A DNA stretch of 64,000 nucleotides from Sedimentibacter hydroxybenzoicus DSM 7310 (GTDB lineage: Bacteria > Bacillota > Clostridia > Tissierellales > Sedimentibacteraceae), in contig NZ_JACBNQ010000001.1 in the NCBI RefSeq assembly GCF_013403245.1, forward strand, positions 62,001 through 126,000, in the 5' to 3' direction. The notes beneath the pieces were generated by a model, which made no database searches, was not told the DNA's origin, and saw only the letters and a list, made by a program, of their open reading frames with translations. Shown piece by piece: positions 17,278 to 61,167 of the stretch (position 1 is its first letter; each line of letters begins with the position of its first letter). The translations under genes and the position numbers were made by a program.

Positions 17278-17398
17278 TGATTTTTAAAGGGAAAAACAAA
17301 AAAAGGCCTGATTTTCAGTTGCTAATTTTGAGTTTGAAAAATGTATAATTATTCGAATAAAAAAATGTTGATTTTTCAATATTTTTTGTCAAAAAAGC

Positions 17399-17427
17399 TT
17401 GCAATTTGTCTCAATTTGCATTATAAT
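17399..17427 (+). promoter_or_regulatory. Sigma-A promoter of the main flagellar operon
   Basis: TTGCAA at 17399-17404, a 17-base spacer and a perfect TATAAT at 17422-17427 predict transcription from about 17434. This places the start some 25 bases before the riboswitch aptamer, which is the arrangement expected for a leader RNA. Confidence 0.85.
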
Positions 17428-17458
17428 GCTGTTAGATTTAAGAAAATTTTAAGAATTG

Positions 17459-17535
17459 AAAAGGTAAAGCTGTCGAAAGGCAGTGTCACAAAGCTATAGG
17501 GCCTAAGGGAATTTCTAAGGCAGCCAGTTGCCAAT
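17459..17535 (+). promoter_or_regulatory. Cyclic di-GMP-I (GEMM) riboswitch
   Basis: The region contains the conserved aptamer parts in order: GGTAA at 17463 that closes with TTGCC at 17528, the P2 hairpin CTGTCGAAAGGCAG with a GAAA tetraloop, then CACAAAGC, the P3 arm beginning TATAGGGCCTAAGG, and CAGCCAG. This is the standard type I cyclic di-GMP aptamer. It sits in the leader between a sigma-A promoter and flgB, with an intrinsic terminator downstream. Type I aptamers ahead of flagellar operons in clostridia act as off switches when cyclic di-GMP is high; the same direction is inferred here from the terminator, not proven. Confidence 0.93.
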
Positions 17536-17561
17536 GATATCTATATAAATGTTATGCATAT

Positions 17562-17607
17562 ATATAATTTATTGTGGTGCCTGGCAAAAACGTAAATTAT
17601 ATTTTTT
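17562..17607 (+). terminator. Riboswitch-controlled terminator in the flgB leader
   Basis: ATATAATTTA at 17562-17571 pairs exactly with TAAATTATAT at 17593-17602, followed by TTTTTT. A competing hairpin can form from TATATAAATG at 17542-17551 and CATATATATA at 17557-17566; it uses up the first terminator arm and is a candidate antiterminator. The loop of the terminator contains GGTGCCTGGCA, which could itself fold. Confidence 0.75.
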
Positions 17608-17636
17608 ATGCAAATTTTTAAAAAAGGGGATATGAA

Positions 17637-18026
17637 ATGCAATTTAATAACAGTACTAATCTAAATTTATTAAGCAAGGGTTTAGACGGGTTATGGCTGA
17701 GACAACAGGTAACTATGGAGAATATAGCAAACTATTCAACTCCGGGGTATAAAAGTAAATATGTAGATTTTGAGAACTTCTTAAAATCACATATGGAAAA
17801 TCGCTACGATAAAACCATATCTGAAATAAACAATCAAATAAAATCCAGCAAAATTGTCGTTGATGAAAATGACAATCTATCATTGCGCCTTGACGGCAAC
17901 AACGTTGACGTAGAAAAAGAAAATCTCCAGCTTGCAAAAACACAATTTCAATATATATATACAGTATCAGAAATAAATTCATATTTTTCTAAATTAAAAT
18001 CAGTAATTTCCGAGGGAAAAAAATAG
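17637..18026 (+). CDS. flgB: Flagellar basal-body rod protein FlgB
   Basis: A 129-residue proximal rod subunit. The N-terminal family motif ENIANYSTPGYKSKYVDFE is at about residues 28-46. The C-terminal helix ending ISEGKK completes the coiled rod pair. It is the first gene behind the cyclic di-GMP riboswitch, with an AAAAGGGGA ribosome binding site just after the terminator hairpin. The length is usual for the family. It is followed by flgC, fliE and fliF in the standard order. Confidence 0.93.
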   Translation: MQFNNSTNLNLLSKGLDGLWLRQQVTMENIANYSTPGYKSKYVDFENFLKSHMENRYDKTISEINNQIKSSKIVVDENDNLSLRLDGNNVDVEKENLQLAKTQFQYIYTVSEINSYFSKLKSVISEGKK

Positions 18027-22161: not shown

Positions 22162-23461
22162 CCAAAAGATAAAAGATTTTCAGGAAGCACTTGCAAAGGA
22201 TGACTTCAGTACATACATAGGAAAAGTAAAAAAAATATCCGGCATGATGATAGAAGCAACGGGAAAGAAGTATAAGATAGGCGAGGTTTGTGAGATATCC
22301 ACTGATGATGCAGAAAAAACAATACGGGCCGAGGTTGTTGGGTTTAATGACGGAAAAGTATTGCTTATGCCCTATGAGGATATAAAGGGTATCGGTCTTG
22401 GCAATACCGTCAAGTCTACAAAGCACAAATTAAAAATACCTGTCGGAGATTTCCTGATAGGCAGGATAGTTGATGCAACCGGGCAGCCGATTGATGACGG
22501 AGAAGAATTCACATGCAATGAATACTGCTATGTTGACAATGAGTATATAAACCCTCTGTCAAGACCAAGGATTGATTCAAGCCTGAGCTTCGGAGTAAAA
22601 GCGATCGACGGACTGTTAACCATAGGTAAAGGTCAGCGTATGGGCATATTTGCCGGCAGCGGTGTAGGAAAAAGCACGCTGTTGGGTATGGTTGCAAAAA
22701 ATGTAAAAGCAGATATAAACGTTATAGCTCTTGTGGGTGAAAGAGGAAGAGAAGTAAGAGAGTTCATCGATAAGGATTTAGGAGAAGAAGGGTTAAAAAG
22801 GTCAATACTGGTAGTAGCAACATCGGATCAGCCGGCTATGCTGAGGGTTAAATGCTCGCTTGTTGCAACGACCATAGCAGAATACTTCAAAGATAAAGGC
22901 ATGAATGTGCTGTTGATGATGGATTCCTTAACAAGATTTGCCATGGCACAGAGAGAAATCGGACTTGCTACCGGAGAGCCGCCTGTATCAAGAGGGTATA
23001 CACCTTCAATATATGCGGAACTGCCTAAGCTCTTAGAAAGAAGCGGTAATTTTAATACCGGTTCGATTACGGGGATATATACCGTATTGGTTGAAGGCGA
23101 TGATACTAATGAACCAATTTCTGATACGGTGAGAGGTATACTTGACGGACACATAGTGCTGACAAGAAAATTGGCAAACTCAAACCATTATCCTGCAATT
23201 GATGTTAATGCAAGTATATCGAGATTGATGATTGACATAGCAACAGACGAGCATAATGCTCAGGCCAAGAAATTAAGGGAAATTTTATCTGTTTATTACT
23301 CTAATTATGATTTAATTTCTATCGGTGCTTACAAAAAAGGCACAAACTTAAAATTAGATGAAGCAATAAGCAAAATAGATCAAGTGAACAGCTTCTTAAT
23401 TCAAGGAGTAGATGAAAAATATTCCTTCGATGAAATACTGAATTTGATGGAAGAAGTATAA
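22151..23461 (+). CDS. fliI: Flagellum-specific ATP synthase FliI
   Basis: A 436-residue ATPase of the flagellar type III export apparatus. Walker A is GSGVGKSTLLG near residue 173, Walker B is VLLMMDSLTR near 254, and the conserved PPVSRGYTPSIYAELPKLL follows. It forms the hexamer that unfolds or primes cargo, regulated by FliH, encoded just upstream with an 11-base overlap. A pair of dispersed repeats separates it from fliJ. Confidence 0.96.
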   Translation: MQFNQKIKDFQEALAKDDFSTYIGKVKKISGMMIEATGKKYKIGEVCEISTDDAEKTIRAEVVGFNDGKVLLMPYEDIKGIGLGNTVKSTKHKLKIPVGDFLIGRIVDATGQPIDDGEEFTCNEYCYVDNEYINPLSRPRIDSSLSFGVKAIDGLLTIGKGQRMGIFAGSGVGKSTLLGMVAKNVKADINVIALVGERGREVREFIDKDLGEEGLKRSILVVATSDQPAMLRVKCSLVATTIAEYFKDKGMNVLLMMDSLTRFAMAQREIGLATGEPPVSRGYTPSIYAELPKLLERSGNFNTGSITGIYTVLVEGDDTNEPISDTVRGILDGHIVLTRKLANSNHYPAIDVNASISRLMIDIATDEHNAQAKKLREILSVYYSNYDLISIGAYKKGTNLKLDEAISKIDQVNSFLIQGVDEKYSFDEILNLMEEV

Positions 23462-23490
23462 CGTTATTGTTCATGATAATTTAAAAATAT

Positions 23491-23565
23491 GTCATTCCGA
23501 ACGTTAGTGAGGAATCTCAGCCCTTTAAAACCTGAGATTCTTCGGGCTAAAACCCTCAGAATGAT
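23491..23565. repeat. Inverted pair of GTCATTCYGA repeats between fliI and fliJ
   Basis: A forward unit (GTCATTCCGAACG to GGAATCTCAG) is followed after 11 bases by an inverted unit (CTGAGATTCTTCGGG to CTCAGAATGAT). The two can pair into a long imperfect hairpin in the operon message. It lies inside the flagellar operon and might affect downstream expression or message stability. Confidence 0.8.
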
Positions 23566-23580
23566 AAAAAGGGGTGAAAG

Positions 23581-24032
23581 ATGAAAAAATTTAGTTTTTC
23601 TCTTCAAAAAATATTAGAAATAAAAGAACAGGTTTTAGATAACCTTAAAATTGAGATGGGTAACCTGAACCGTGAACTTAACACTGTTGAACAGCAAATT
23701 AAGAACCTTAAAACAGAATTTAAGCAGTTAAACGATGAATTTGTTGAAAAGTGTGCAGTTTCTGTTTCTGTGGGCGAAATGACCTATTATAAGATGTATA
23801 TGGACAATGTTTTAAAACAAACAGAAAAAAAGAAGAAGAAAAAAATATAATTTTAAAAAAGATAGAAGCAAAAAGACATGAAATTATAAACGCCAACATG
23901 GAAATATCAAGCTTGGAGAAGCTTAAAGAAAATGAGTTGGAAAAATATAAAAAAGCATTCATGAAAAGCGAAGAAATATTTATCGATGAATTTGTTTCAA
24001 ATAAAAGCATTTTAAACAAATATGCAATGTAA
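23581..24032 (+). CDS. fliJ: Flagellar export protein FliJ, with apparent -1 frameshift
   Basis: The first frame (23581-23850) gives 89 residues that open like FliJ (FSFSLQKILEIKEQV) but ends in a lysine run and TAA. Reading shifted by -1 near 23826-23832 continues with KNIILKKIEAKRHE and SSLEKLKENELEKYKKAF to a TAA at 24030-24032. The joined product is about 150 residues, the normal FliJ length, and all helical coiled coil. The switch site is a run of seven A followed by G, phased as A AAA AAG, the classical bacterial -1 slippery heptamer. So the gene may be decoded by slippage, may be broken, or the sequence may lack one A. FliJ is the stalk of the FliI ATPase. Confidence 0.8.
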
Positions 24033-24078
24033 TATTTGAAACATTGAAAATATCAAAGAATCGAAAGGAGGTGATAAT

Positions 24079-26342: not shown

Positions 26343-27239
26343 ATGATGAAAGCACTTTATTCTGGTGTATCAGGAATGAGAAGTCACCAGACAAAAATGG
26401 ACGTAATAGGTAACAACATAGCTAACGTTAATACATACGGATACAAATCACAAAGAACTACATTCAGAGACGTATATTATCAGCAATTAAAAAATCCAGG
26501 CGGAGCAAGTGTCGACAGAGGGGGAACTAATGCTGCACAAGTGGGATATGGAGCTCAGATAGGTTCTGTTGATACGATACATACAATATCCGGATATTCA
26601 CCTACAAATAAATCTACAGATATTTATATCAACGGTGAAGGATTCTTAACAGTGGAAACTTCAACAGGGCAAAGATTGTATACACGTCTGGGAGCACTTG
26701 GCTTTGATTCGGCAGGAAACCTCGTTGATGTAAACGGCTCAAGAGTTTATGGTTGGAATGATGGTGATTTTGCAATAAATGCCGAGGGTGTAATTACAGT
26801 TGATGAAGCTGATCTTGCAGCAATAAATATAGCACCTACGGATCCGGATGTTGAATATACAAACATTACCATAAATACTGATGGTCTAATTACTGCTGTA
26901 TACAACAACAAAGATGACGACTCTGATCCGCTGAACGATACAATTGTTGATTTAGGAGTTATAGCTGTTGCAAGCATTCAAAATCAGGATGCATTGGTAC
27001 ATGAAGGGAATTCATATTACAGGGAAAGTAAGAACACCGGTGAAATTACATATAATATACCCGGCTCAAAAGGTTCTGGAACAGGCGCGTTAGTTACCGG
27101 CGGACTTGAAATGTCCAACGTAGACTTGGCAAATGAGTTTTCAGACATGATCATAACACAAAGAGGTTATCAGGCAAATACAAAGATAATTTCCGTAGTT
27201 GATCAGATGCTTGAAGAATTGGTTAACCTTAAGAGATAG
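26343..27239 (+). CDS. flgE: Flagellar hook protein FlgE
   Basis: A 298-residue hook subunit. The N-terminal motif DVIGNNIANVNTYGYKSQRT is at about residues 20-39, and the C-terminal D0 helix reads SDMIITQRGYQANTKIISV. The middle domain is short, so this is near the small end for FlgE. An AAAAGGAG site lies 12 bases ahead of the ATG pair; the second ATG (26346) might be the true start. The 77-base gap upstream contains a possible small RNA fold described under the findings. Confidence 0.93.
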   Translation: MMKALYSGVSGMRSHQTKMDVIGNNIANVNTYGYKSQRTTFRDVYYQQLKNPGGASVDRGGTNAAQVGYGAQIGSVDTIHTISGYSPTNKSTDIYINGEGFLTVETSTGQRLYTRLGALGFDSAGNLVDVNGSRVYGWNDGDFAINAEGVITVDEADLAAINIAPTDPDVEYTNITINTDGLITAVYNNKDDDSDPLNDTIVDLGVIAVASIQNQDALVHEGNSYYRESKNTGEITYNIPGSKGSGTGALVTGGLEMSNVDLANEFSDMIITQRGYQANTKIISVVDQMLEELVNLKR

Positions 27240-27248
27240 ATAATATAA

Positions 27249-27307
27249 ATCCTTCGCTACGCTCAGGATGACGAATTTGTCATTCTGAACGTAGTGAAGA
27301 ATCTCAT
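27249..27307. repeat. Back-to-back GTCATYCTGA repeats between flgE and flbD
   Basis: An inverted unit at 27249-27272 (ATCCTTCGCTACGCTCAGG, GATGAC) is followed by a forward unit at 27279-27307 (GTCATTCTGAACGTAGTGAA). The units can pair around a six-base loop. It lies within the operon, ten bases after the flgE stop. Confidence 0.8.
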
Positions 27308-27359
27308 TATTAAAAAGACAGGGAACGTACGGTATTGCCAATCCATTGCAATAGAAGCA

Positions 27360-27407
27360 TTAATCATGATTATAAACAGAAAATTTATGATTATGATTAA
27401 GGTTTTT
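27360..27407 (+). terminator. Possible attenuator hairpin before flbD
   Basis: TTAATCATGATTATAA at 27360-27375 pairs with TTATGATTATGATTAA at 27385-27400 with two mismatches, then GGTTTTT follows. This looks like a weak intrinsic terminator inside the flagellar operon. Since the genes downstream must be made with those upstream, partial termination (attenuation) or an RNA stability role is likelier than a full stop. Confidence 0.5.
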
Positions 27408-27425
27408 AAAAAATAGGAGGGGTAT

Positions 27426-37174: not shown

Positions 37175-37191
37175 AGAAAAGAGTGATGCAT

Positions 37192-37983
37192 ATGATTTTA
37201 ACTGATAATTATAATGTAGAAATCGATGAAGTTGAATTATGGGAGCAGTATTATGCTACCAGAGATATTCAAATAAGAAATCAAATAATTGAAAAGTACA
37301 GTTATTTAGTAAAAATAATAGCTTTGAAGCTAAGAGGAATTTATCAGCAATACGGTGATGTAGATGATATTGTGAATGAAGGCATAATAGCTTTAATGGA
37401 TGTTGTTGAAAAATACGATATTACAAAAAATACTAAATTTGAAACATATGCTTCAATTCGAATAAAGGGATCAATAATTGATTATGTAAGAAAACAGGAC
37501 TGGATACCACGAAAAGTAAAAAGTGATTATAAAAACATTAAAGATGCAGAGGATAAACTCACTAACAGTTTAGGAAGAACACCAAAGGATGATGAAGTAG
37601 CGAAATATCTGAAGATGGATATGAAGGATTACAATCAAATAGTCAATAATGCTTTCGGGACAAGCATATTATCCTTTGAAGAGCTGATTGGTGAAGCTAA
37701 CCTGACAGAAACGGAGATGAGTATCGGGTACGACCTTCCGGAAGAAGAAATTGAATTAAAGGAATTGCACAAGGTCTTAATCGATAGCGTAAATAAGCTT
37801 GGTGAGAAAGAAAAATTAGTAATCTCTCTCTATTACAAAGAAGATTTAAAGCTTAAGGAAATAGCTGACATCTTAAATATCAGCAATTCCAGGGTTTCTC
37901 AAATACACACTTCGGCACTTCAGAAGTTAGAAAAAAATATAATGGATTATCAAAACGATATTATAGAAAAGGATAAGAGGTGA
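37192..37983 (+). CDS. fliA: Flagellar sigma factor FliA (SigD)
   Basis: About 263 residues of a sigma-70 group 3 factor of the FliA/WhiG type. Region 2 has GDVDDIVNEGIIALMDVVEKYD and TKFETYASIRIKGSIIDYVRKQDW (each is one conserved block), and region 4 has the helix-turn-helix KEIADILNISNSRVSQIHTSA. It should read the sigma-D promoters listed here and be blocked by FlgM. In-frame starts GTG 37183, ATG 37186 and ATG 37192 exist; the last is taken for its spacing to GAGTG. Because it lies in the riboswitch-led operon, cyclic di-GMP also gates the late genes. Confidence 0.93.
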   Translation: MILTDNYNVEIDEVELWEQYYATRDIQIRNQIIEKYSYLVKIIALKLRGIYQQYGDVDDIVNEGIIALMDVVEKYDITKNTKFETYASIRIKGSIIDYVRKQDWIPRKVKSDYKNIKDAEDKLTNSLGRTPKDDEVAKYLKMDMKDYNQIVNNAFGTSILSFEELIGEANLTETEMSIGYDLPEEEIELKELHKVLIDSVNKLGEKEKLVISLYYKEDLKLKEIADILNISNSRVSQIHTSALQKLEKNIMDYQNDIIEKDKR

Positions 37984-37987
37984 TTAA

Positions 37988-38740
37988 ATGTCAAGAGGAT
38001 TTTATGCATTAGCATCAGGCATGCTGACTCAGCAAAGAAAAATAGATATATCAAGTAACAACATTGCCAACATGAACACTCCCGGATATAAAAAAGAACA
38101 AGCTGTAACCACAACCTTCGGAGAGCTTTTTATAAACAAATATAAGCAAAACGGAATTTATAATGAAGCAACTCCTATAAATAATGTTTCATTGATACAT
38201 ACAGTCGTGGAAAATAACACATTTCATTCACAAGGAACTTTGGAAGAAACAGGACGTACACTGGATTTCGCGATTATGGGTCCCGGATTCTTTTCAGTAG
38301 ATGTTGATAATCAGATATTGTATACAAGAAACGGCAGCTTCAATATTGATGATGAAGGATACATGGTATTAGAAGGCAGTGGCAGAGTACAAGGTGAATT
38401 CGGAGAAATATACTTAGGTACGGACAAATTTGAATTTGCAGAGGACGGAAGTATTGTTGTGGAAGATGAAGTTGTCGACAGAATTGCAGTGTATGATTTT
38501 GCTGATTACAATGCTTTGAATAAATACGGACCGGGAATGTACATTTCCGATGAAGATCCTGAATTAATCGATTATCCAAGAGTAGTAAATCAAACAATCG
38601 AAAGATCAAACGTAAATATGACAGAGGAATTTACCGGAATATTAGCATCTCAAAGATCGTTGCAGACAGCATCACAGGCATTCAAAATTTACGATATGAT
38701 TAATGAAAAAGCCGTAACCGAAATTGGCAAGATAGAATAA
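37988..38740 (+). CDS. flgF: Flagellar hook-basal body protein, FlgF/FlgG family (first copy)
   Basis: A 250-residue distal rod type protein. The N-terminal motif DISSNNIANMNTPGYKKEQ is at about residues 19-37, the middle has DFAIMGPGFFSVD, and the C terminus ends in ERSNVNMTEEFTGILASQRS. It could be called FlgF, FlgG or FlhO; these cannot be told apart with certainty from sequence alone. It begins four bases after fliA with a AAGAGGTG site, and a second member follows after a repeat element. Confidence 0.88.
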   Translation: MSRGFYALASGMLTQQRKIDISSNNIANMNTPGYKKEQAVTTTFGELFINKYKQNGIYNEATPINNVSLIHTVVENNTFHSQGTLEETGRTLDFAIMGPGFFSVDVDNQILYTRNGSFNIDDEGYMVLEGSGRVQGEFGEIYLGTDKFEFAEDGSIVVEDEVVDRIAVYDFADYNALNKYGPGMYISDEDPELIDYPRVVNQTIERSNVNMTEEFTGILASQRSLQTASQAFKIYDMINEKAVTEIGKIE

Positions 38741-38760
38741 ATTAAAACCAAATGTTATAC

Positions 38761-38871
38761 GTCATTGCTACGAATAAACGCAAATTATCGACGCTGTCAT
38801 TCCGAACGTCAGTGAGGAATCTCAGGTTTTGAAGTTCTGAGATCCTTCGAGCTAAAGCTCTCAGGATGACA
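38761..38871. repeat. Composite repeat between the two rod genes
   Basis: Three parts in order: GTCATTGCTACGAATAAACG at 38761, a forward GTCATTCCGAACG unit at 38796-38825, and an inverted unit CTGAGATCCTTCGAG to CTCAGGATGAC at 38837-38871. The last two can pair into a hairpin. The first part is a second repeat type also seen at 42315, 61027 and 61064. Confidence 0.8.
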
Positions 38872-38889
38872 TTACAAGGAGGAGAATAA

Positions 38890-39591
38890 ATGATAAAAGC
38901 ATATTATACAGCAACAAACGGGGCAATAAGCAGTCAGAATTATTTGGATGTTTTATCAAACAATATGGCCAATGTCCAGACAGAAGGATTTAAGAAATCA
39001 AAAGGAGAATTTTCCGATTTAATGTATACAAACATTCGAGGACCGGAAGGAACCGATACAGAATTAAAATCCGGAAGCGGCTCAAAACTGAATAAAGCAG
39101 ACGTGGTATTCACTCAAGGAGCTCCATATTATACAGGAAGATCAACGGATTTTGCAATTACAGGTGAAGGTTTTTTTGCAGTTCAGTTTGAAGATGAAAA
39201 TATGTATACAAGAGGCGGAAGTTTTCAGATTACTAATATAGATGATGAAAACTATTTAATGTACCAGGGTGGATACGTACTAAACAGTGAAGAAGAACCT
39301 ATAATTTTAGAAAATACCGACGATATAATAGATGTGGGAGTAGTTGTTTTTAACAACAATCAGGATTTAGTTCAGGCAGGCAACAATCTCTTTGGAATTG
39401 CAAATGAAGATGCCGAATACGAAATGCTCGAAAATCCAAAGGTAATGAATGGTTTCCTTGAAAGTTCAAATGTCGATATATCAGAAGAAATGGTAAAATT
39501 AATACAAATTCAAAAATCTTTTCAGCTTAATTCAAGTATAATCAGAACAGCAGACGAAATTGAACAGACGATAAACTCTTTGAGAGGTTAA
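38890..39591 (+). CDS. flgG: Flagellar hook-basal body protein, FlgG family (second copy)
   Basis: A 233-residue rod protein. The N-terminal motif VLSNNMANVQTEGFKKSKG is at about residues 21-39, then DFAITGEGFFAVQ, and the C-terminal LESSNVDISEEMVKLIQIQKS in the last 45 residues. It resembles Bacillus FlhP and clostridial FlgG. AAGGAGGAG stands before the ATG, just after a repeat element. Only one of the pair is usually the distal rod; the other may be the proximal part. Confidence 0.88.
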   Translation: MIKAYYTATNGAISSQNYLDVLSNNMANVQTEGFKKSKGEFSDLMYTNIRGPEGTDTELKSGSGSKLNKADVVFTQGAPYYTGRSTDFAITGEGFFAVQFEDENMYTRGGSFQITNIDDENYLMYQGGYVLNSEEEPIILENTDDIIDVGVVVFNNNQDLVQAGNNLFGIANEDAEYEMLENPKVMNGFLESSNVDISEEMVKLIQIQKSFQLNSSIIRTADEIEQTINSLRG

Positions 39592-41789: not shown

Positions 41790-42268
41790 GTCAAGCAGTA
41801 AACGTAGGTATTTCAGACATGAAGATAGTTAATGTCCCAAACGGGTTGATTTCATACGCCCTTGGTTCTTGTGTAGGTATTTGTATTATAGATAAGGCAG
41901 CGAAAATTGCAGGGATGGCTCATATAATGCTTCCATACAACAACAACTCGGACAAAAGTAATGTTTTTAAGTATGCGGACACGGGTATAGATGAAATGAT
42001 CAGACAAATGGAACGCTTAGGAGGATTAAGATCAAGAATGATTGCTAAAATCGCCGGCGGGGCTAAAATGTTCGATATAAAAGGAAGCTCAACTATAGGA
42101 AATATAGGTGAAAGAAATGTAGCTGCTACAAAGGAAACATTACAAAAATTAAAAATTAAGCTTTTCGCGGAGGATGTCGGACTAAACTATGGACGAACAA
42201 TCACTTTTGACAGCGTAACAGGTAACCTGACAATTAAATCCTTCGGTAAAGATTTGAAGGTAATATAG
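41786..42268 (+). CDS. cheD: Chemoreceptor deamidase CheD
   Basis: A 160-residue deamidase acting on glutamine residues of chemoreceptors and binding CheC. The catalytic cysteine is in ALGSCVGICI near residue 32, and the histidine is in MAHIMLP near 49. The C-terminal GLNYGRTITFDSVTG is conserved. The ATG at 41786 overlaps the cheC stop; a longer frame upstream lies wholly within cheC. It is the last gene of the riboswitch-led transcript, before a convergent operon. Confidence 0.94.
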   Translation: MSQAVNVGISDMKIVNVPNGLISYALGSCVGICIIDKAAKIAGMAHIMLPYNNNSDKSNVFKYADTGIDEMIRQMERLGGLRSRMIAKIAGGAKMFDIKGSSTIGNIGERNVAATKETLQKLKIKLFAEDVGLNYGRTITFDSVTGNLTIKSFGKDLKVI

Positions 42269-42314
42269 ACAATCTTTTTCAAGGATATGAATACACTGAA
42301 ACTTTATGCTTCAC

Positions 42315-42422
42315 GTCATTGCTATGAATAAACGTAAATGATCCGCTTTTGTCATTCCGAGCGGCAGCGAGGAATCTCAGGTTTTGAAGTTCTGAAATCT
42401 TTCGCTATCGCTCAGGATGACA
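42315..42422. repeat. Composite repeat between convergent cheD and comFB-like gene
   Basis: It has GTCATTGCTATGAATAAACG at 42315, a forward GTCATTCCGAGCG unit at 42351-42380 and an inverted unit ending CTCAGGATGACA at 42391-42422. It is the same three-part layout as at 38761. It lies between convergent genes, so the hairpin could serve both strands as a weak terminator, though there is no T run. Confidence 0.8.
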
Positions 42423-42434
42423 AATCGGGTTGGT

Positions 42435-42707
42435 CTACTCGTGATTCGTATTTTTTGACACAAACTCAATGGCTTTAATTACCTCTGAGATAACCTCTGC
42501 ATGGTTTTGAGTAGCTAATGAAGAGTATTCGGCGTACACCTCTCCTTTTTTTGTTGTGATGTAGTATGGCTTAATGTTATTCAAAGCTTTAGCCATCATG
42601 TCATCAGTACATTGGTCGCATGTGCAAATACTTGCATATGTCGGATCGTTCTTTAATGTTTGATTTACAAAATTTCTTACAATTTCCTCCATATAATTTA
42701 CAACCAT
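42435..42707 (-). CDS. ComFB-domain protein, short form
   Basis: A 90-residue protein that is almost only a ComFB domain: CTCDQC cysteine cluster near residue 28, then MAKALNNIKPYYITT and the closing EVISEVIKAIEFV helix. It lacks the N-terminal extension of the paralogue at 9033. An AGGGGG site stands before the ATG. It is the last gene of the reverse-strand operon that also codes for a PilZ protein. Since ComFB family members have been described as cyclic di-GMP receptors, it may be another input of that signal; this is inference. Confidence 0.82.
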   Translation of the reverse strand: MVVNYMEEIVRNFVNQTLKNDPTYASICTCDQCTDDMMAKALNNIKPYYITTKKGEVYAEYSSLATQNHAEVISEVIKAIEFVSKNTNHE

Positions 42708-56244: not shown

Positions 56245-58269
56245 ATGGCAAAGAAAAGCTTGTCAACCAAAAGTATAACATTTAAAATAACGTTTTCAAT
56301 TTTTGTAGTATGCTTTGTGGCGTTATTATTAACCGGATTAGTTATAGGAACTACAATCAATAATCGGTTTACGGAAACTAAAAAAACCGTACTGAATGAA
56401 ACATCTGAAAGTATAGGAAATAAATCAGAAGCATTTTTTGAAAGATATATAGCGATAGTACAACAAATGGCACAGGATAAGAACTTGCAGAATTTCATGG
56501 TTAATGCAAAGGGGTGGAATACTCTGAAGCAAACAGAAGGTTTCATGATTGCTTCTAAGACTACCGAGGATACTCAGAAGTCAGATCCGGATGTAATTTT
56601 AACAGCGTATATAGCACAAACCGATTACTATCTTGCATCTCCGACTGTTTTTTCAACTTCAATGTATGATGTAACCTCAAAGGAATATTACAAAGCAGTT
56701 TCTGAGGACAGGGTATGTATTACGGAGCCATATATTGATGCAATCACAGGAGGAGTAGTCATAACCATATCCGCACCGGTCAGAGCTAACGGAAAGATTG
56801 TGGGTCTTGCTGCAGTTGATATAGCAATAGATAAGCTGACTGCAATGGTAAGTAATCATAAATTGGGTGAGACTGGATATTTTTCACTGTTAACAAAAGA
56901 CAATACTATAGCAGCTCATAAAAATGAAGAATTAATTTTAAAGAATATAGATGAAATCGGCATAAGCAGTAATCTGATTCAGTCAATTAATAACAATGAC
57001 AATAACGTTGTGGAATATGCTATCAACAATCAGAAGATATTGGGAAAAAGTGTGCAGATAGGCAATACCGGGTGGAAAGTTTTATCATCTCTCCCTAAAG
57101 ACGAATTTATGTCTGACACAAGACAGCTTATACTTACTATAGTGTTTGTATTCTTAGCTGTATTAATTGCGTTGTTGGTTGTTCTAACCATAGCTATAAA
57201 GAGAATGACTAAACCGGTAAAAACTATAACCGATATTACCAATAAGTTAGCTCAGGGCGAATTGGATGTAACCATTGATGTAAAGAGTAAGGACGAGATA
57301 GGCGTTCTTGCAGAATCTATTGAGAGCTTAACCGTACGGTTAAAATCATATATTAATTATATAAATGAAAGTGTTAATGTGTTGAATGATTTAGCAGAAG
57401 GCGATTTAGTGATGGATTTGCAGTATGATTATGATGGTGAATTTGCTAAATTGAAACAAAGCTTACTCCATGTATCTGGAACCTTAATGGATACAATCGG
57501 AAAAATAAAGGATTCATCAGAATTTATCAGCATGAATGCTGCTAATGTTTCCAACGGAGCGCAGACACTTGCTCAAGGCACGACAGAACAAGCAAGCGCA
57601 ATAGAGGAATTATCGGCTGAAGTAAATGAAATTTACCATACGATTGCAAATAATGCAGAGCATGCCGAAAATGCGGGAAGAAAAGCACTGGAAGCTTCGA
57701 AGGAAGTTGAACAAGGAAACATACACATGAGGGACATGCTTTCTGCAATGGACGAAATAAGCGAATCTTCAAATGAAATAGGCAAGATTATAAAAGTAAT
57801 TGATGATATAGCTTTCCAGACAAATATTTTAGCTCTTAATGCAGCCGTTGAAGCAGCAAGAGCAGGCTCTGCAGGCAAGGGATTTGCGGTAGTTGCCGAC
57901 GAAGTAAGAAATCTGGCAGGAAAATCTGCAGAAGCTGCGAAGCAAACAACAGCATTGATTGAAAATTCAATAAGCTCTATTTCAAAAGGAACCATGCTGG
58001 CGGATAAAGCAGGTAAATCTCTGTCAGGCATAGTTGAGATTACAAACAAAACTAATGAATTAATAAGTGAAATAGTAAATGCGTCGGCACAACAAACTGT
58101 TTCGGTAAATCAGATAAGAAGCGGTATTGAACAAATATCATCTGTAGTTCAACAAAATGCTGCAACGGCAGAGGCAAGTGCCGCAAACAGCGAAGAGCTT
58201 TCAGGACAATCACAGGTTTTAAACGATTTAATAAGCAAATTTAAATTTAATACTGAAGAAGTAGTTTAA
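56245..58269 (+). CDS. Methyl-accepting chemotaxis protein with Cache sensor
   Basis: A 674-residue receptor. Membrane helices are at about 14-37 and 293-316. Between them lies a double Cache sensor of about 250 residues ([19 protein letters not shown] and [19 protein letters not shown] fragments are typical). A HAMP linker and a signalling domain with [19 protein letters not shown] near residue 523 follow. It is expressed alone from a sigma-D promoter between two terminators or hairpins. The ligand is probably a small organic molecule such as an amino acid, but is not known. GGAGGAG precedes the ATG. Confidence 0.94.
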
Positions 58270-60969: not shown

Positions 60970-61129
60970 GTCATCCTGAGGTTCTCGCTTCTGTCATCCT
61001 GAACGAAGTGAAGGATCTCAGGTTTTGTCATTGCTATGAATAAACGGTATATCGTATGCTTGTGTCATTCCTATGAATATACCGAATATCGTACTATTAT
61101 GTCATTCTGAGCGTAGCGAAGAATCTCAG
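60970..61129. repeat. Cluster of GTCATT repeats between receptor and flagellin
   Basis: Five units begin with GTCATT or GTCATCC at 60970, 60993, 61027, 61064 and 61101. The units at 61027, 61064 and 61101 are spaced exactly 37 bases apart. Two are of the ATGAATAAACG type and the rest of the CTGAGCG type. The gap 60966-61331 contains this cluster, a terminator and the flagellin promoter and leader; no gene is seen. Confidence 0.8.
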
Positions 61130-61167
61130 CTTTATTGTTCTGAATGATTGGGAGTCTCAACAAAATC

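Follow-up and report, generated by a model that had tools for sequence, protein, structure and literature searches.

A predicted c-di-GMP-I riboswitch of the transcriptional OFF type in the flgB leader of Sedimentibacter hydroxybenzoicus

Organization of the flagellar locus

The window analysed here is a 64-kb stretch (64,000 nucleotides) of the Sedimentibacter hydroxybenzoicus DSM 7310 genome, and it contains a long run of flagellar genes headed by flgB (Table 1). flgB is followed on the same strand by flgC, fliE, fliF, fliG, fliH, fliI, an open reading frame (ORF) in the fliJ position, fliK and flgD, next by genes for a hook-type protein, motA, motB, fliM, a fliN/CheC-type protein and a receiver-domain protein, and then by members of the fliP, fliQ and fliR families, flhB, flhA and fliA. 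As the first-pass annotation of this DNA had proposed, the run includes the flagellar sigma factor gene fliA, which scores 230.6 bits against TIGR02479 and lies 19.5 kb downstream of flgB in the same co-directional series; fliA is also found at the expected downstream distance in all seven relatives examined. The genes upstream of the aptamer are flgM, flgK, a flagellin-like ORF in the flgL position and fliW.

Table 1 Features of the flgB leader and of the genes discussed in the text
Feature	Position in the window	Strand	Basis
Conserved promoter block TGTCAAAAAAGCTTGCAATTTG	17387–17408	+	TGTCRAA (0A-box-like) at 17387–17393 plus the −35 region
Sigma-A-type promoter	17399–17427	+	−35 TTGCAA 17399–17404, 17-nt spacer, −10 TATAAT 17422–17427
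c-di-GMP-I (GEMM-I) aptamer	17453–17535	+	RF01051, 71.4 bits
Antiterminator 5′ strand	17523–17539	+	Aptamer 3′ end plus 4 nt; predicted folds
Antiterminator inner hairpin	17542–17566	+	17542–17547/17561–17566; predicted folds
Predicted intrinsic terminator	17562–17607	+	A/U-rich hairpin 17562–17575/17590–17602, T6 17602–17607; fold and consensus stem in nine aligned relatives
Antiterminator 3′ strand	17570–17585	+	Overlaps terminator 5′ arm and loop; predicted folds
flgB, first gene of the early flagellar operon	17637–18026	+	TIGR01396, 86.8 bits
fliA, flagellar sigma factor	37183–37983	+	TIGR02479, 230.6 bits

Terminator-like sites between 17300 and 37200 number 14, against 9.4 expected, with 10 of the 14 on the opposite strand, and no operon-internal terminator stands out. 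We infer that flgB to fliA are co-transcribed over the full 19.5 kb. A sigma-28 pattern (TAAA-N12-16-CCGATA) occurs four times in the window, against 0.93 expected, and only two of the four matches lie just before late genes, the chemoreceptor genes at 56245 and 58488. With a relaxed sigma-28 score (maximum 12), four controls gave 8–9; flgM, fliD and flagellin scored 9, level with the upper controls, and three chemoreceptor genes together with cheA scored 10–11. Putative control of the late genes by sigma-28 has only partial support.

In the ORF in the fliJ position (23581–24070), for which we obtained no FliJ hit, the reading frame is broken near an A-rich stretch (about 23820–23860). The break could reflect slippage, a genuine frameshift or a mistake in the assembly. 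A repeat of the form TGTCATTCCGAACG...GAATCTCAG and its complement were seen by eye in gaps within and near the flagellar operon (23461–23581, 27239–27420, 38740–38890, 42268–42450 and 61100–61150).

A complete GEMM-I aptamer precedes flgB

A complete GEMM aptamer had been read from the letters alone, with a search using the Rfam GEMM-I model proposed as a check. In a cmscan of the 64-kb window, that model (RF01051) matched 17453–17535 over its full length (positions 1–87 of 87; 71.4 bits, E 5.2e-12), well above the gathering cut-off of 35 bits, and this was the sole Rfam match in the window at the gathering threshold. We therefore regard the element as a predicted c-di-GMP-I riboswitch. In the covariance-model alignment, G17463 and C17531 occupy the ligand-contacting positions, which we take to be G20 and C92 in the numbering of the Vc2 RNA. 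C17531 is the first base of the conserved CC at the aptamer 3′ end and is likely to be the ligand-contacting C. The genome assembly (3.81 Mb in 71 contigs) contains six GEMM-I matches, five of them above the cut-off, together with 18 GGDEF matches.

The position equivalent to G20 bears on the identity of the ligand. The G20A form of the GEMM-I aptamer binds 3′,3′-cGAMP (PMC6274999), and one relative (L066 in genome G010, aptamer at 2451–2536) has A at this position, the base tied to recognition of cGAMP instead of c-di-GMP. The window and 17 of the 18 other loci have G here (L065 assigned by eye), which makes cGAMP a very improbable ligand of the flgB leader.

The first-pass annotation had also placed a sigma-A promoter ahead of the aptamer. 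By pattern alone the assignment is no better than chance, as promoter-like matches number 4 against 4.2 expected between 16900 and 17700, and 79 against 82.0 between 17300 and 37200. Its support comes from comparison across the genus: TATAAT is kept in all 17 loci with upstream sequence, the window included (L060, which lacks upstream sequence, was left out of the alignment), as is the block around the −35 element described below.

Conservation of the aptamer before flgB

Of 25 Sedimentibacter genomes searched, 19 carry flgC, and the aptamer stands before flgB in all 19. In 18 of these it lies directly at the flgB locus. In the nineteenth genome (G016), the flgC locus (L061) begins 256 nt 5′ of flgC, and the aptamer was located by eye on another contig (L173) together with the start of flgB. 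Another genus of the family is represented by one genome with the aptamer (L142); flgB was identified there by eye.

We found 72 flgC-bearing genomes among 199; those examined beyond the genus comprise L123–L141 and G026. No Rfam hit at the gathering threshold was obtained near flgC in the 19 further loci L123–L141, of which one comes from another genus of the family and 18 come from other families of the order. The link between aptamer and flgB may therefore have arisen more than once or have been lost often.

Competing terminator and antiterminator folds

The platform downstream of the aptamer folds with an energy of −9.1 kcal/mol and reproduces the terminator that had been marked at 17562–17607, an A/U-rich hairpin followed by T6. 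A simple terminator scan, which demands at least three G–C pairs, called none at this site. A candidate antiterminator had been placed at 17542–17566; a hairpin there does appear in the predicted fold, as the inner part of a larger structure whose outer pairing, 17523–17539 with 17570–17585, had been missed. The full set of pairs consists of 17523–17527/17581–17585, 17529–17533/17575–17579 and 17535–17539/17570–17574 in addition to the inner hairpin. In the predicted folds, terminator and antiterminator compete for bases within 17561–17575 and the loop, in agreement with the earlier proposal that the antiterminator shares bases with the terminator arm. The decisive pairing in this model is that formed by the aptamer's own 3′ strand, in which C17531 pairs with G17577 and C17532 with G17576.

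These folds hardly beat shuffled sequences: the whole leader shows no advantage (z −1.02; 26 of 200 as good), and the platform is weakly better (z −1.76; 9 of 200 as good). The support for the switch is therefore mainly comparative.

Were the leader to control translation instead, through the flgB Shine–Dalgarno sequence, it would resemble Vc2 of Vibrio cholerae, which shares the GEMM-I aptamer and controls translation (PMC9262584). In the predicted fold of the flgB leader, the Shine–Dalgarno sequence (17625–17629, assigned by eye) remains single-stranded, and a hairpin with a U-tract lies upstream of it. We consider translational control at this site extremely unlikely.

Proposed mechanism and polarity

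Because the platform holds the terminator and the antiterminator uses the aptamer strand, a bound aptamer is expected to favour termination. The first-pass annotation gave no polarity; the order of the strands corresponds to OFF. In the predicted folds the antiterminator captures C17531 and the terminator avoids the aptamer strand, and the leader precedes a flgB operon with a flagellar sigma factor gene, a profile that matches Cd1 of Clostridioides difficile. We conclude that the flgB leader very probably acts as a Cd1-type OFF riboswitch at the level of transcription.

Transcription would begin near 17434 and proceed through the GEMM-I aptamer. While c-di-GMP is low, the aptamer 3′ strand (17523–17539) would pair with 17570–17585, removing C17531 from the ligand pocket and capturing part of the terminator 5′ arm, and in this antiterminator state the polymerase would read into flgB and on toward fliA. 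With c-di-GMP bound, the 3′ strand would be held in the aptamer, the A/U hairpin 17562–17602 would form before T6, and the transcript would end at about 17607. High c-di-GMP would thus turn off the early flagellar genes directly and the sigma-28 genes indirectly.

The opposite sign, an ON switch in which ligand binding blocks the terminator, is exemplified by the Geobacter metallireducens pilM riboswitch. pilM resembles the flgB leader in its aptamer fold and in acting on transcription, and differs in being ON, in responding to cGAMP and in a terminator that uses the aptamer strand (PMC9262584). The same strand use occurs in two other GEMM-I loci of the S. hydroxybenzoicus genome, L004 (G000:C70) and L005 (G000:C30), in which the aptamer 3′ end itself serves as the terminator 5′ arm, and no structure forms ahead of the first T-run when the platform is folded by itself. 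Both are predicted ON switches; L004 stands before two proteins, each about 200 residues long and lacking a Pfam hit, and L005 before an HTH/TPR protein. At flgB, by contrast, 26 nt separate the aptamer from the terminator, and the antiterminator rather than the terminator uses the aptamer strand. Flagella switched on at high c-di-GMP would also run contrary to the usual logic (PMC6366702). An ON switch at flgB is accordingly rated highly improbable. If the predictions for L004 and L005 are correct, one genome would use one aptamer class with both signs.

Platform behaviour across the genus

We examined 18 genus loci, seeking the terminator in the platform only. Without the aptamer, the hairpin before the T-run formed with a pairing probability of 0.81–0.98 in all 18 loci. 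When the last 18 nt of the aptamer were added, terminator pairing was at most 0.09 in 10 of the 18, falling in the window from 0.81 to 0.00. In nine of these ten loci, no more than 8 of 100 shuffled aptamer strands equalled the drop; in the window, 25 of 100 shuffled strands lowered the terminator equally (shuffled mean P 0.22). With the whole aptamer included, terminator pairing was 0.26 or less in seven of the ten, the exceptions being L052 (0.42), L066 (0.58) and L064 (0.97). In the other eight loci, the terminator persists at equilibrium despite the aptamer strand.

Folding the leader as it stands before the terminator 3′ arm is transcribed, we found that pairing of the conserved C to the platform reaches a probability of at least 0.9 in 10 of the 18 loci. 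Against dinucleotide shuffles, this pre-terminator fold is better at p<0.05 by energy at 16 of the 18 loci (window p=0.033) and by pairing of the aptamer strand at 9 (window p=0.037); combined p values exaggerate the support because the loci are related. Under a stricter cut of the platform, eight of the 18 loci reach 10 of 200 shuffles or less, and the window stands at 36 of 200. No antiterminator was found in the pre-terminator fold of L054 (p=0.90) or in the stretch folded of the nineteenth locus, L173, and that of L049 is weak (p=0.23). Covariation is slight, with one of 15 predicted pairs altered on both sides; the terminator sequences vary too little for covariation to be informative. 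L058 and L064 retain the older antiterminator strand and have a different terminator, which starts inside the antiterminator 3′ strand.

An intact aptamer on a worn-out platform that no longer switches would be in keeping with the weak A/U-rich terminator, with the low z score of the leader and with the C. difficile copies that are reported to be non-functional (PMC6366702). Mutually exclusive folds nevertheless recur in relatives whose platform sequences have diverged, and we judge loss of switching in the window to be improbable. The recurrence of these predicted folds suggests that the OFF logic has been retained while the platform sequence changed.

As a separate observation, the region 3′ of the aptamer in L049 (G008; 2548–2638) looks like a duplicated platform, with a tandem pair of similar A/U-rich terminators ahead of flgB.

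A conserved block around the −35 element

Alignment of the 17 loci on TATAAT revealed a block of 22 nt, TGTCRAAAAAGCTTGCAWTTTG, that surrounds the −35 element. Its mean conservation is 0.91, against 0.55 for the upstream flank and 0.62 for the spacer. The first part of the block, TGTCRAA (TGTCAAA in the window), lies exactly 28 nt 5′ of TATAAT in 15 of the 17 loci. L054 and L173 have TGTCGAA at a second position closer to the −10 element, and L063 and L174 have TGTAAAA at the first position. The exact block, allowing any base at W, occurs once each in 11 of the 25 genomes, always at flgB; the remaining copies have one to three mismatches. In G022, two one-mismatch copies seem, by eye, to come from a single locus broken across two contig ends, and in G024 and G010, both flgC-bearing, we found no copy within three mismatches.

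TGTCGAA is the core of the Spo0A box (PMC3485338), and 24 of the 25 genomes contain a Spo0A match (weak and partial in G017; none in G019). G005 and G020, which have variant or shifted boxes, nevertheless have Spo0A. Two expected Spo0A targets served as a control in the genus: TGTCRAA was found upstream of spoIIGA in none of 17 cases and upstream of spo0A in none of 20, with TGTCGAA inside the spo0A gene, 134 nt past the assumed start, in five of the 20. TGTCRAA-N26-30-TATAAT occurs 15 times in the S. hydroxybenzoicus genome against 10 in the control, little excess. With the motif missing upstream of these two expected targets, we keep Spo0A only as a lead for the reader of the block. In C. 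difficile, Spo0A reduces flagellar gene expression, and the authors name CD0241-0244 as the exception among such genes to the lack of an upstream consensus box (PMC4028888). Among the titles listed in our literature search on Spo0A and flgB, none concerned such a box at flgB. Another candidate reader is RstA, which features in a study concerned with the flgB promoter of C. difficile (PMC6414698).

The flgB promoter might, as a tentative and rather doubtful proposal, be a two-input gate in which a DNA-binding regulator, perhaps Spo0A, acts at TGTCRAA and the −35 element and c-di-GMP acts in the RNA just downstream. Were this so, signals for sporulation and surface attachment would converge on one flagellar promoter.

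Many of the spo0A upstream regions (L103–L122) contain, before spo0A, a conserved stretch like AAAAAAAAAGGGTTTTTT...TTGCGTATTAT.

Comparison with C. difficile

Published work describes in C. difficile the aptamer, the platform logic, the operon, the sigma-factor relay through sigma-D and the motility outcome (PMC3649979, PMC6200980, PMC11477304, PMC9262584). This includes the two-step control that the first-pass annotation had suggested, of the early genes directly and the late genes through the sigma factor (PMC3649979, PMC6200980, PMC11477304). Cd1 (Cdi1_3), like the leader studied here, has a GEMM-I aptamer before flgB, with OFF polarity and a sigma factor gene in the operon (PMC9262584, PMC3649979, PMC6200980, PMC6366702). 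In Cd1, as in our predicted folds, the antiterminator pairs the ligand-contacting C and downstream strands form the terminator; the C87–G147 antiterminator pair renders the RNA unable to bind ligand, and the antiterminator is only transiently stable, refolding in time to the terminator (PMC9262584). C17531 would play the role of C87. Class I riboswitches of C. difficile are described as OFF and class II as ON (PMC11477304, PMC6366702), although a single study observed induction for one copy of class I (PMC3649979).

The two leaders also differ. The C. difficile promoter lies 496 bp before flgB and the terminated RNA is about 160 nt long (PMC3649979), whereas here the aptamer ends 101 nt before the flgB start codon (17637); and the platform is A/U-rich, unlike that of Cd1. 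C. difficile has an invertible flagellar switch upstream of the operon (PMC7446863, PMC8890394). A search for inverted repeats between 16900 and 17640 yielded five pairs, all imperfect (74–88%) and A/T-rich, with no clear invertible segment, and we rejected such an element here.

A literature search returned nothing on a c-di-GMP riboswitch in Sedimentibacter or on flagella and riboswitches under Tissierellales-type names, and the flgB-leader instance of this genus seems to be undescribed in the literature searched. The genus loci could form a natural series for the study of expression platform evolution. If the predictions above are correct, the flgB leader would extend the C. difficile arrangement to an anaerobe genus of another lineage, in which the aptamer stands before flgB in all 19 of the flgC-carrying genomes searched.
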